NCBI GenBank assembly: GCA_017438085.1
Contig: JAFRWH010000353.1
Location: 1 to 5,116 of the forward strand
Origin: Bacillota bacterium
Lineage (GTDB): Bacteria > Bacillota_A > Clostridia > Peptostreptococcales > Anaerovoracaceae
Length of the DNA stretch: 5,116 bases
Direction: 5' to 3'
A model generated the notes under the pieces. It was not told the DNA's origin. It did not search any database and worked only from the letters and a program-made list of their open reading frames with translations. Both the position numbers and the translations under genes were made by a program. Position 1 is the stretch's first letter; every line of letters begins with the position of its first letter. Below, in pieces: positions 1 through 5,116 of the stretch.

Positions 1-635
1 AGGTCAAAACCCGTAGTCCAGTGATGATTCAGATGAGTCAGAGCATAGGACCTGGCGGTGAGAGCCTGAGCTTTCAGGGCTTCGATCGGGTAATTGTAGC
101 CCATTTCGTTGCCCACAACTCCCCAGACATAGTGTTCCAGAGTAAGATAGCTTATGGGATGGATCTTTTGTGCTTCGTTTGTATAGAAAATGAAACCATC
201 GCGGTAGTTATTGCCGTTTATCCTTACATTTCTGGTCGCCGGATCCTGTCCTTTGCTTAAAAATACAGTTCCATTGGGATAATCTCCCGGGTTCAGACTG
301 AGGCTTGTCACCCCATCGATCTCTGCAGTCAGTTCTCTGTCAAGAATGAAGGTATTGTTGACTGCTTTTCTGTCTACCTGACCGACATAAAAGCCATCCT
401 TGCAGTAAAGCTCTACGCTCTCAACTGCATTGTCACCCCACTGGATCCCAATGCGCATCCACTGGCCGTCCATTCCGGAAGGATATTCTATGCTTTCGGC
501 AACGATGGCAGCTTCGGTAGTGCCGGTCGTTTCAGGATCGGGATCTTCGGCAAAGCAAAGCTGCCCGAAAGCCCCAAGAATCAAACAGAATATTAGAGTG
601 AAGACCGAAGTTTTCTTTAAGAATCCCTTTACCAT
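1..635 (-). CDS. SpoIID/LytB-domain protein, secreted, C-terminally incomplete in window
   Basis: Only the first 211 codons lie in the window; the frame is open through the left edge. The start is the ATG at 635, which overlaps the end of ruvB by 7 bases (ATGGTAA), with a GAGGAG ribosome binding site at 652-647, 11 bases upstream. Residues 1-29 form a signal peptide: basic start (K3, K7, K8), hydrophobic core about 11-24, and a likely signal peptidase I site after C-F-A at 29. There is no convincing lipobox. Residues 40-160 resemble the variable N-terminal part of SpoIID-type proteins. Residues 165-199 carry the family hallmark, [10 protein letters not shown] followed by P-I-E-A-L-K-A-Q-A and A-R-S-Y-A-L. 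E177 in the NEM triplet matches the essential glutamate of Bacillus SpoIID, a lytic transglycosylase acting on denuded glycan strands during engulfment. Family assignment is secure. Whether it is true SpoIID or a vegetative LytB/amidase-enhancer paralogue cannot be told without the C-terminus. It lies last of the visible ruvCAB transcript genes. Confidence 0.9.
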
Positions 636-1699
636 AGCTTCATCTGCTCCTCGCTGTCTTCAGCTGCTTCGGCCGAAACGCTGCCCGGCTTCATGTAATC
701 AGGCACAGGAAGGCCCAGATGCGAATAGGCCTTTGCAGTCACTATCCTGCCCTTCGGAGTCCTGTGGAGCATGCCAAGCTGCATAAGATAAGGCTCGTAC
801 ATATCCTCTAAAGTGATGCGTTCCTCGCCCAGGGATGCGGCTATGGTGTCTATTCCCACAGGACCGCCCTGGAAGCTCTCGATAATAAGCCTCAGTATGC
901 GGCGGTCGAGGTCATCCAGCCCGAGTTCGTCCACTCCGAGCGCATTCAGAGTCGAGTTTACGATATCAACATTTATGTTACCATTATATTTAACCTGGGA
1001 GAAATCGCGCACTCTCTTCAGCATCCTGTTGGCCACACGCGGAGTTCCTCGGGATCTCTTGGCAAGCTCCATAGTAGATGCATCGTCTATCTCTATCCCC
1101 AGTATTCCTGCAGTGCGCTTGATTATCTGGCACAGTTCCTCGTTACTGTAAAGGTCGAATTTTGCAAGAACGCCGAAGCGGTCCCTCAGAGGCGCCGAAA
1201 GACTGCCGGATCTGGTTGTAGCCCCTATAAGAGTGAAGTGCGGAAGTCCGAGCCTTAAGGTCTCTGCCATAGGCCCCTTGCCCATTACGATGTCGATTGC
1301 GAAGTCCTCCATGGCAGAGTACAGAGTTTCCTCCACATTGCGGCTCAGGCGGTGGATCTCGTCTATAAAGAGCACGTCCCCTTCCCCGAGATTGCTTAAA
1401 ATGGCGGCAAGATCTCCCTGCCTGGTTATAGCAGGACCGGCACTGATCTTAAGCTCTACACCCATCTCGTTGGCTATGATGCCGGCAAGCGTGGTCTTTC
1501 CAAGGCCCGGAGGCCCGAAAAACAGCACATGATCCAGTGTCTCGCCTCGCATTTTGGCAGCTTCTATATATATTTTCAGCTGATCTGTGACGCCCTTCTG
1601 CCCTATATAATCCTCCATGCGCTTGGGGCGTATGGATTTTTCGAGCAGCTCCTCATCCTGCATCAGTTCAGCATCTGTTATCCTCTGTTCGTATGCCAT
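629..1699 (-). CDS. ruvB: Holliday junction branch migration ATPase RuvB
   Basis: 356 residues, slightly longer than the usual 330-350. RuvB is the hexameric AAA+ motor that, loaded by RuvA, pumps DNA through Holliday junctions. Visible motifs: Walker [10 protein letters not shown] at 62-70, Walker B LFIDEIH at 110-116, sensor 1 GATTRSG at 159-165, the PLRDRFG box at 170-176 with R174 as likely trans-acting arginine finger, and sensor 2 arginine R221 in [10 protein letters not shown]-terminal winged-helix DNA-binding domain spans about 260-333. The last roughly 20 residues form an acidic tail ending in QMKLW. The ATG at 1699 is chosen because an AGAGG ribosome binding site (1709-1705) lies 5 bases upstream and directly abuts the ruvA stop codon, implying coupled translation. 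All catalytic motifs are intact. The 3' end overlaps the start of the SpoIID/LytB-domain gene. Confidence 0.98.
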
Positions 1700-1701
1700 A
1701 A

Positions 1702-2301
1702 TTACCTCTGATTTCTGGCTCTGAGTGCCAGTCTTACATATTCTTCGGTGCTGTAATCGCCATCGGGTACCGATGCCATGGCCTCCATAGCTTCAGTCCT
1801 GGAGAAACCGAGCGCCATAAGAGCCTTGGCTGCCGCATCTCTGTTGCTGCCCTTCTCCGGCTGAGGCGCGCTGATATCGGAGGCGAGAGTCTCGAATATC
1901 TTGACCTTGTCCTTGAGGTCTATGACAACTCTCTGGGCGGTCTTTTTGCCCACGCCGGGAGCCTTGGTTATGGATGCATCATCGCCGTATGCAATGGCCT
2001 GCACCAGCTGCTTCAGTGTCATGGAAGAAAGGATGGCCAGGGCTGCCTTTCCTCCTACGCCCGAGACTGTCAGCAGCATTCTGAACATGGCAAGGCTGTC
2101 TCTGTCTGCAAAACCGTAGAGGCTGACATCGTCTTCCCTGACCAGCATTGCCGTATAAATGCACACGGTCTCTCCGGTCCCGGCCTTAAGATAAGCCGGG
2201 CTGTTGGCAGGAACATTGATCTCATAGCCTATGCCGCCGCATTCCAGAACTATCATGCCGGCGAAACTGTCCGTTACAACGCCTTTTATAAAGTGGATCA
2301 T
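1702..2301 (-). CDS. ruvA: Holliday junction branch migration subunit RuvA
   Basis: 199 residues, the normal family length. RuvA tetramers bind the four-way junction, hold it open and square, and recruit RuvB rings. Domain I (OB fold) covers about 1-63 and carries the acidic pin E56-D57 in [11 protein letters not shown] that separates strands at the crossover. Domain II has two helix-hairpin-helix motifs, SGVGGK at 80-85 and PGVGKK at 115-120. A flexible linker at about 141-153 leads to domain III (154-195), the RuvB-contacting three-helix domain with A-L-M-A-L-G-F at 160-166. The ATG at 2301 follows a strong CAGGAG site (2313-2308) with 6-base spacing. The gene begins 42 bases after the ruvC stop and ends 2 bases before ruvB. 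Nothing is missing or unusual in the protein. Confidence 0.98.
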
Positions 2302-2343: not shown

Positions 2344-2856
2344 TCAGCGCCTCTGGCGGGCTTTTAATTCCTTAAGCCGCTTCATGGCTGTACCGGATTT
2401 GGCGTGACAAATGGCCGCAGCCACTGCATCTGCCGCATCATCGGGCTTTATGATCTCGTCCATTCCAAGCAGCAGCTTTACCATGCTCTGGACCTGCTTC
2501 TTTTCCGCTCTGCCGTTTCCCGTTACCGAGGTCTTTATCTGAAGCGGAGTGTATTCAAAAATAGGAAGACCACTGTTGGCGCATGCAAGTATGGCAACGC
2601 CTCTTGCTTCTCCCACAAAAATAACTGTCTTGGCGTTGGTGTTGAAGTACAGCTCTTCTATAGCCACCTCTTCCGGCTGATACTCGGCGATTATCTCCAT
2701 GAGAGACGAATAAAGCACCTTAAGACGGTCGGACATGTCCATGTCCTTATCCGTGGTTACCGCGCCCACATCCACCAGTTTAAGACTGCTTCAGTTTTTC
2801 TCCAGTATCCCGTAGCCCATTATTGCGTAGCCCGGGTCTATGCCTAAAATCCTCAA
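2344..2856 (-). pseudogene. ruvC: Holliday junction resolvase RuvC, interrupted by an in-frame TGA at codon 22
   Basis: Read from a TTG start at 2856 the frame begins (M)RILGIDPGYAIMGYGILEKN, the classic RuvC N-terminus with catalytic D7, then meets TGA at 2793-2791 and continues in the same frame as SSLKLVDVGAVTT through to a TGA at 2346-2344. Total 170 codons counting the stop, normal for RuvC. The other catalytic residues are present: E67 in AIEELYF, and D140 and D143 in PDDAADA. RuvC is the dimeric RNase H-fold endonuclease that resolves Holliday junctions on RuvAB. The TTG is supported by AGAGG (2866-2862) 5 bases upstream. The only sizeable open frame after the stop could begin at GTG 2775 (143 residues); it lacks D7 and the first beta strand, and has no good ribosome binding site, so an active product from it is unlikely. 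Everything but the TGA looks under normal constraint, so the lesion is very recent, a sequence error, or read through. Identity is certain; functional state is not. Confidence 0.9.
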
Positions 2857-3009: not shown

Positions 3010-3459
3010 ATGAGCTACAGCAGAAGAGAAAAGATACTGCAGATCATAGCAGAACAGCCGGTCCAGACCCAGCAGCAGCTGGCGGAACTGCTGGTAAAAG
3101 AAGGCTTTGAGGTGACTCAGGCCACCGTTTCCAGAGATATCAAAGAACTTAAGCTGGTGAAGATCCCAAGAGCCGGAGGCAAGAGTTGCTACAGTGTTCC
3201 GCCGGTCCCCGAGACACGCATGAGCGACCGCTTCTCCAGAATACTAAGCCAGACCGTACAGAGCATAAAATCATCAGGAAATCTGATAGTTGTGAACACT
3301 CTGAGCGGCTGTGCCAACGCCGCGGCGGAAGCTATAGACTCTGCCAAATTCCAGGATATACTGGGGTCCATCGCAGGAGACAACACCATATTCCTTGTGG
3401 TGGACGGCGAGGATCATGTCCAGAGTATAGTTGAAAAACTTAATTCGTACATCGGATAA
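3010..3459 (+). CDS. argR: Arginine repressor ArgR/AhrC
   Basis: 149 residues, full family length. ArgR is a hexameric, arginine-sensing transcription factor that represses arginine biosynthesis genes and in Bacillus also activates catabolic ones. The N-terminal winged helix-turn-helix (about 3-66) contains the recognition helix TQATVSRDIKEL at 36-47 with S41-R42 as DNA contacts. The C-terminal oligomerisation and arginine-binding domain (about 75-149) has GNLIVVNTLSG at 90-100 and the pocket motif GSIAGDNT at 119-126. In Bacillus and E. coli the last motif is GTxxGDDT, so the second Asp is Asn125 here; likewise the Gln of the PGxAQ motif is Asn103 (SGCAN). The ATG at 3010 follows AAGGAG (2998-3003) with 6-base spacing. 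recN starts 6 bases after the stop, as in the ahrC-recN arrangement of Bacillus. An ARG box in the leader implies autoregulation. Confidence 0.97.
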   Translation: MSYSRREKILQIIAEQPVQTQQQLAELLVKEGFEVTQATVSRDIKELKLVKIPRAGGKSCYSVPPVPETRMSDRFSRILSQTVQSIKSSGNLIVVNTLSGCANAAAEAIDSAKFQDILGSIAGDNTIFLVVDGEDHVQSIVEKLNSYIG

Positions 3460-3465: not shown

Positions 3466-5116
3466 ATGATCGAACATATTTCAATCAAAAACTTCGCAAT
3501 TATAAAGGAGCTGAGCCTGGATCTCAAGCCGGGACTGAATATAATCACCGGCGAAACAGGTGCAGGAAAGTCCATTATAATCGAAGCAATAAGCATGGCG
3601 CTGGGTGCACGGGCAGATACGGATTACATACGCACCGGTGAGGACAAGGCTGTGATCAGCATGGCGCTGGATCCTGAGGACGCCGCTGTTTCCGGCATTC
3701 TTGAGGATGCGGGAGTCGAAGATGAAGGCATGCTGATACTCCAGAGGGACATAAGTTCCCAGGGAAGAAGCCTTTGCAGGATCAACGGGAGCATGGTCCC
3801 CCTATCCGTTCTGAACAGACTCTGCAGAAATCTTGCGGACATACACGGCCAGTACGACAACCAGAACCTGCTTGACCCGGAGAACCATACAGATATACTG
3901 GATCTTTACGGCGGCCCTGCTCTTTCTGAGCTCAAGGGCCTTGTTTCGGGTGCTTATAAGGAATATGTTTCAGCTTCCGGAGAACTCATGAAGCTTCGCA
4001 AAAGCATAGCTGAGACCCGTCGTCAGAAGGAGCTCCTGAGCTTTGAGCTTGGTGAGATCCGGGCTGCGGGCCTTGCCATCGGCGAGGATCAGGAGCTGGA
4101 GGAACGGGTAAGGCTGATGCAGAACAGCGAAAGCATCTACTCCGCCCTCTCCCAGGCTTATGAGGCGATATACGGCGGAGACAATGATATGGATGCTATG
4201 AGCCCTCTTGGCCATGCAATGGATCAGCTCGGCTCAGTCGAGGACTTTTCCGCCGACATCAAGGCCATATCCGAAGCCGTCAGCGATGCATATTATAAAC
4301 TTGACGATCTCAATTCTTCCATAAGAAAGCTCAGGGATTCCATCAACTTCGAGCCCGAAGAGCTGAACATGGCCATAGAGAGGCTGGAAACAGTCAATTC
4401 CATGAAAAAGCGCTACGGCGGAAGCATAGAAGCGGTCCTTGCCTATGCCGAAGAGGCGGAAGAGAAGCTTAAAACAGCTGAAAATGCAGAAGAAAGGGTC
4501 TCGCAGCTGGAGAAAATGATATCCGAGAGCTTCAGCCGTTACAGCGGTTATGCAGGAAAGCTTACTCAGGAGCGTCAGAAGACTGCTTTGCTTCTGTGCC
4601 GGGCTGTAAACAAAGAGCTTGCAGAGCTGAATTTCCGCAATGCGGATTTCAAAGTATCGATCGAAAGCAGTTCGCCGTCCGAAAAAGGATCTGACAAGAT
4701 TGAATTCCTCATCACTACAAATAAAGGCGAAGCCCATAAGCCGCTTGCAAAGATCGCCAGCGGCGGCGAGCTTTCCCGCATCATGCTTGCCCTTAAGAGC
4801 ATCCTCGGTGAACTGGACCGCATACCAACCATGATATTCGATGAGATCGACAGTGGTATTTCGGGGGCTACAGCAGGAATAGTAGGAAACAAACTGAAGG
4901 CCATATCAAAGGACCATCAGATAATCTGCATCACTCACCTGCCCCAAATCGCAGCTCTTGGCGACCACCCCTACCGCATAGAAAAGACCAGCGATGAGAT
5001 AAGCACCAGCACCACAGTGGTGCCCCTCGACGAAGCTGAGCGCGTAGAGGAACTCGCGCGTCTGCTTTCCGGCACCGAAATAACGGATACCGCAAGGCTG
5101 CAGGCCAGAGAGATGA
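3466..5116 (+). CDS. recN: DNA repair protein RecN, C-terminal end cut off by window
   Basis: 550 codons are present and the frame is open at the right edge; RecN is usually about 550-570 residues, so only a short tail is missing. RecN is an SMC-like ATPase recruited early to double-strand breaks, where it tethers ends and aids RecA-dependent repair. Motifs: N-terminal IKNFAII typical of the family, Walker A GETGAGKS at 29-36, Q-loop region DIHGQYDNQNLL at about 124-135 (Y where many relatives have H), a long charged coiled-coil region about 155-370, ABC signature SGGELS at 432-437, Walker B MIFDEID at 456-462 with catalytic E460, D-loop SGISG at 463-467, and the switch histidine H491 in ITHLPQIAALGD. 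The ATG at 3466 is chosen because the family begins exactly there (MIEHISIKNF). Its ribosome binding site is weak (CGGA at 3453-3456), which suggests translation coupled to argR, 6 bases upstream. All ATPase motifs are intact. Confidence 0.97.
   Translation, partial: MIEHISIKNFAIIKELSLDLKPGLNIITGETGAGKSIIIEAISMALGARADTDYIRTGEDKAVISMALDPEDAAVSGILEDAGVEDEGMLILQRDISSQGRSLCRINGSMVPLSVLNRLCRNLADIHGQYDNQNLLDPENHTDILDLYGGPALSELKGLVSGAYKEYVSASGELMKLRKSIAETRRQKELLSFELGEIRAAGLAIGEDQELEERVRLMQNSESIYSALSQAYEAIYGGDNDMDAMSPLGHAMDQLGSVEDFSADIKAISEAVSDAYYKLDDLNSSIRKLRDSINFEPEELNMAIERLETVNSMKKRYGGSIEAVLAYAEEAEEKLKTAENAEERVSQLEKMISESFSRYSGYAGKLTQERQKTALLLCRAVNKELAELNFRNADFKVSIESSSPSEKGSDKIEFLITTNKGEAHKPLAKIASGGELSRIMLALKSILGELDRIPTMIFDEIDSGISGATAGIVGNKLKAISKDHQIICITHLPQIAALGDHPYRIEKTSDEISTSTTVVPLDEAERVEELARLLSGTEITDTARLQAREM

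Follow-up and report, generated by a model that had tools for sequence, protein, structure and literature searches.

The window, by which we mean the whole 5,116-nucleotide stretch of DNA that was analysed, carries six genes, among them a ruvC-ruvA-ruvB cluster (Table 1). A spoIID-like gene follows ruvB on the same strand, and argR and recN are divergent from ruvC, the latter being presumably recN from its place beside argR and from its sequence. The five genes other than ruvC have no internal stop. Of the 12 loci closest to the window, 8 (L001, L002, L006 to L010, and L012) have all six genes in the same arrangement, including the divergent argR-recN pair. The closest loci belong to Clostridia and Bacillota genomes, mostly metagenome-assembled, with a similar gene order, which makes the organism of the window one of their relatives. 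Across the 80 loci kept from 522 confirmed relatives, the order is whole in 12, lacks a spoIID hit in 21, and comprises only ruvC-ruvA-ruvB in 29, within the stretch covered.

Table 1. Features of the window, with the evidence for each.
Feature	Position	Strand	Evidence or remark
spoIID-like gene	3..635	-	continues past the window edge
ruvB	629..1699	-	without internal stop, terminal TAA
ruvA	1702..2301	-	without internal stop, terminal TAA
ruvC frame, starting with TTG 2856, closed by a terminal TGA of its own (2346-2344), broken at codon 22	2344..2856	-	PF02075 match, E 2.7e-52
In-frame TGA, codon 22 of ruvC (2793-2791)	2791..2793	-	translation
Leading piece, 21 codons and the TGA, containing the catalytic D7	2791..2856	-	translation, alignment
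Downstream open reading frame, 143 amino acids from GTG 2775, without D7	2344..2775	-	ORF listing
argR, divergent from ruvC	3010..3459	+	terminal TAA
recN	3466..5115	+	PF02463 match; continues past the window edge

The uninterrupted reading frame expected of a ruvC gene is broken here by a TGA at codon 22, which a single substitution separates from a glycine codon. The minus-strand translation of 2344-2928 reads ...LRILGIDPGYAIMGYGILEKN-stop-SSLKLVDVGAVTT..., and 148 codons are open after the TGA. With the stop written as X, the product matches PF02075 in one stretch, from residue 3 to residue 151 (177.1 bits), and covers positions 1-148 of the 148 of the profile. D7, E67, D140, and D143, which we take to be the catalytic acids of RuvC, are all kept and all stand in invariant columns of a 21-sequence alignment. 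The earlier note was therefore right both in describing an otherwise intact ruvC with a TGA at codon 22, matching RuvC in register on both sides, and in counting these four residues as retained. Because the profile match is in register, the acids are kept, 148 codons are open, and the alignment with the nearest protein is gapless, the continuation of a homologous ruvC frame across the TGA is well beyond chance. The locus shares with known RuvC (PF02075; 1hjr) the full in-register profile, the four catalytic acids, the ruvC-ruvA-ruvB order, and the divergent argR-recN. It differs by the TGA at codon 22, opposite which the solved RuvC 1hjr (5.8e-35), which we take to be the E. coli RuvC structure, has a glycine and the next solved relative, 7w8d, a valine.

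The same site was then read in relatives. The nearest protein found (P0001), which stands for six member sequences and two contigs, has 97% identity to the window RuvC across the entire query. It ends at the same residue, and over 170 positions it differs at five (19, 22, 50, 100, and 133), one of which is the stop itself, with no gap around it. At site 22 it has a glycine, so that, at the protein level, there is a related sequence of the kind for which the earlier note had asked, with a sense residue in place of the stop. Of 8000 candidates scored, 7967 were homologues, and among the 120 of these that were listed, site 22 is glycine in 116, alanine in two, glutamate in one, and arginine in one, with no stop. 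At the nucleotide level, 55 of the 80 loci have a glycine codon, most commonly GGA (24), followed by GGC and GGG (13 each) and GGT (5); the other 25 encode alanine (10), serine (7), asparagine (5), histidine (2), or glutamate (1), and none has a stop. These counts bear out the proposal that the stop occupies a position where glycine is common, a single change away from a glycine codon. We infer an ancestral glycine, and the direction of the change, from this distribution, in which 4 of the 120 homologues and 25 of the 80 loci carry other residues.

The family of G001 (the genome of locus L001) extends this comparison. A RuvC match is present in 277 of its 296 genomes (150 listed without inner stops, plus 4, plus 123, without overlap) and absent from 19. 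No stop interrupts the match in any of the 274 genomes whose match spans site 22; in the other three (G012, G175, and G233) only the later part of RuvC is matched. Several other short RuvC matches in the family lie at contig ends. Lesions elsewhere in ruvC were seen in two family genomes. In G012, a TGA (L091:1069-1071, minus strand) stands at the position corresponding to residue 150, which is cysteine in 111 of 120 homologues and threonine in nine; the preceding residue is also unusual, so that a local error is likely there. In G036 (L092), ruvC lies in two frames on one 61-kb contig, and the frame appears to shift between the positions that correspond to residues 84 and 105. When the downstream piece of the window ruvC was compared with viral contigs, 115 stretches matched and there was no relative among them. 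As far as searched, the codon-22 TGA thus appears to be private to the window.

Apart from this codon, the gene is undecayed. The window RuvC has no deviation at any of the 58 columns with a conservation of 97.5% or more among the other sequences, as is the case for 94 of the 120 homologues, the remainder having one to three; site 22 itself, with 116 of 120, falls below the 97.5% bar and outside the 58 columns. Likewise, none of 32 near-invariant columns deviates in the window RuvA. Judging from these alignments, ruvC shows no sign of relaxed constraint, which would mean that the change is recent or was never in the cell.

The TGA is present, it is absent from the relatives examined, and the rest of ruvC is undecayed. 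The reading that we favor, with a probability of about 0.93, is that one private base change, G-to-T as read along the coding strand and C-to-A along the plus strand, converted a glycine codon in a normal ruvC to a TGA that would have no function, an error being a likelier origin than a nonsense mutation. In our judgement, which was not computed, a consensus or read error is favored over a genuine nonsense mutation by about 60 to 35. The earlier note had listed an error or a fresh nonsense mutation among its options, and the private change and the undecayed remainder make this the likely cause.

Several observations bear on an error. Of the 14,697 single changes possible in these genes, 512 (about 3.5%) create a stop. 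A stray stop produced by error is therefore unremarkable when much sequence is scanned, and a reader will pick out just those windows that contain one. The context of the plus-strand change, C-C-G to C-A-G, can be compared with known damage: the part of a mitochondrial DNA study available to us (PMC6337315) names the C[C>A]G context as a target of oxidation and gives a twofold rise for it among heat-induced artefacts, and the accessible part of another paper names 8-oxoguanine C-to-A artefacts without naming the CCG context (PMC5759201). The match is a weak hint because 9 of the 34 GGA codons of the window have the same C-C-G context. Moreover, oxidative G-to-T changes arise in living cells as well as in libraries. 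Private stops and frameshifts in draft metagenome genomes likewise consist of one lesion on one contig with no decay around it; two other such lesions are found in ruvC among the 277 family genomes, and in the window an error would be the likelier cause. A literature search on pseudogenes arising from sequencing errors in metagenome genomes found nothing, and a search on premature stops in ruvC returned a Wolbachia paper in which the stop, in the part seen, is in addA and not in ruvC (PMC4224334).

The main competitor is a genuine nonsense mutation, in a real lineage with ruvAB intact and ruvC dead that either lives without the resolvase or was soon to be lost. We hold this to be possible, though it is the less probable origin. 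Translation would then yield 21 residues before stopping. Were it to restart at GTG 2775, upstream of which no clear ribosome-binding site was seen by eye, the product would be a piece without D7, and the cell would therefore be without RuvC resolvase. The undecayed remainder of ruvC is what a fresh mutation would leave, and the private lesions of G012 (TGA) and G036 (apparent frameshift) could be counted in its favor, but these may be errors too. A substitute enzyme would also help: RuvX/YqgF is present in six of nine close relatives, and YqgF has been proposed to take over in genomes that lack both RuvC and RecU (PMC1193525, in the part consulted). However, the same text states that YqgF and RuvC/RecU are not simple analogues. 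In Deinococcus radiodurans, YqgF is described, in the portion of the article at hand, as a putative resolvase, and YqgF and RuvC are both essential there (PMC9601230).

The earlier note had further proposed RecU as a replacement for RuvC. This found no support: RecU was detected in none of the nine close relatives (G001 to G009), while the control search found the RecU of Bacillus subtilis and Lactococcus lactis. These Clostridia may therefore rely on RuvC, and a real ruvC null would probably be costly. It would also be expected to be rare, since RuvC or RecU is nearly ubiquitous and only ten genomes in the set of a comparative study were without both, according to the part of it that we could use (PMC1193525). 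Given this expected cost, a null that lasts is less likely than an error or a transient mutant.

Functional readthrough, in which the UGA would be read as an amino acid, possibly selenocysteine, so that some full-length RuvC is made, is far less probable. Among E. coli reporters, UGA is indeed the stop that is read through most, with 14 of 40 premature-TGA reporters above threshold in the part of the study seen (PMC11126739), and selenocysteine machinery exists in kin, with SelB over the curated cut-off in four of nine relatives (G001, G006, G007, and G008; weaker SelB matches, present in all nine, were not counted, as control genomes show the same). Against this, readthrough of UGA in E. coli inserts mainly tryptophan (PMC11126739, same part), and site 22 is mostly glycine and never cysteine, tryptophan, or a stop in the 120 proteins and 80 loci. 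A selenoprotein would have its UGA opposite cysteine or selenocysteine in relatives, whereas 116 of 120 have glycine here and no cysteine occurs in the 80 loci. It would also have a stable hairpin just downstream, whereas the 50 nt counted from the TGA show no more folding stability than shuffled sequence (z 0.26; 114 of 200 shuffles as stable) and Rfam gave no match at the gathering threshold in the window. No tRNA gene lies within the window. A programmed readthrough stop would be conserved, and this one recurs in 0 of 80 loci and 0 of the 274 family genomes spanning the site. The leaky TGA-A context invoked in favor of readthrough is not backed either: the part of the E. coli study at our disposal has a G after the stop lowering and a T raising termination accuracy, and does not name A (PMC11126739). 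With no stop in relatives, no local structure, and no tryptophan or cysteine at the site, the idea of functional readthrough is not supported. Of the earlier interpretation, the glycine site and the error-or-mutation cause are thus supported, whereas readthrough or recoding, the leaky TGA-A, and the double indel discussed below are not.

A change of the genetic code, with UGA meaning glycine, is a very remote prospect. Absconditabacteria and Gracilibacteria, which use a UGA-to-glycine code (NCBI table 25), likewise have TGA at glycine positions, and relatives of the window do carry glycine at site 22 of ruvC. Nevertheless, under that code TGA would be widely a sense codon and not a stop, whereas the window ruvC itself ends with TGA and the 1,639 codons of the six window genes include 129 GGN glycine codons and no second internal TGA. 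Both facts are evidence against a code change. In addition, the code was reported only in these two phyla as of 2021, in the part of the source available (PMC8629427), and the loci nearest to the window are from Clostridia/Bacillota, a different phylum.

Two compensating indels at the A runs close to the TGA, which would make the stop an out-of-frame illusion, can be dismissed as extremely improbable, since the flanks of the stop align with the nearest protein without a gap and only five of 170 positions differ.

Overall, the TGA most probably reflects a slip in sequencing or a copy broken by chance, and not a new reading of the code. As such it matters little, except as a worked case of how an isolated TGA, in frame and at a site of glycine, can resemble recoding; the apparent recoding was largely settled by a close relative, by the gene's own stop codon, and by a family-wide count. 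There is a slim chance that the window represents a natural Clostridia population in which ruvC is interrupted, ruvAB intact, and RecU absent; the resolution of Holliday junctions would then fall to YqgF, to an enzyme not yet recognised, or to small amounts of RuvC produced by UGA readthrough. If this were true and lasting, the ruvC null would point to another resolvase in Clostridia without detected RecU.
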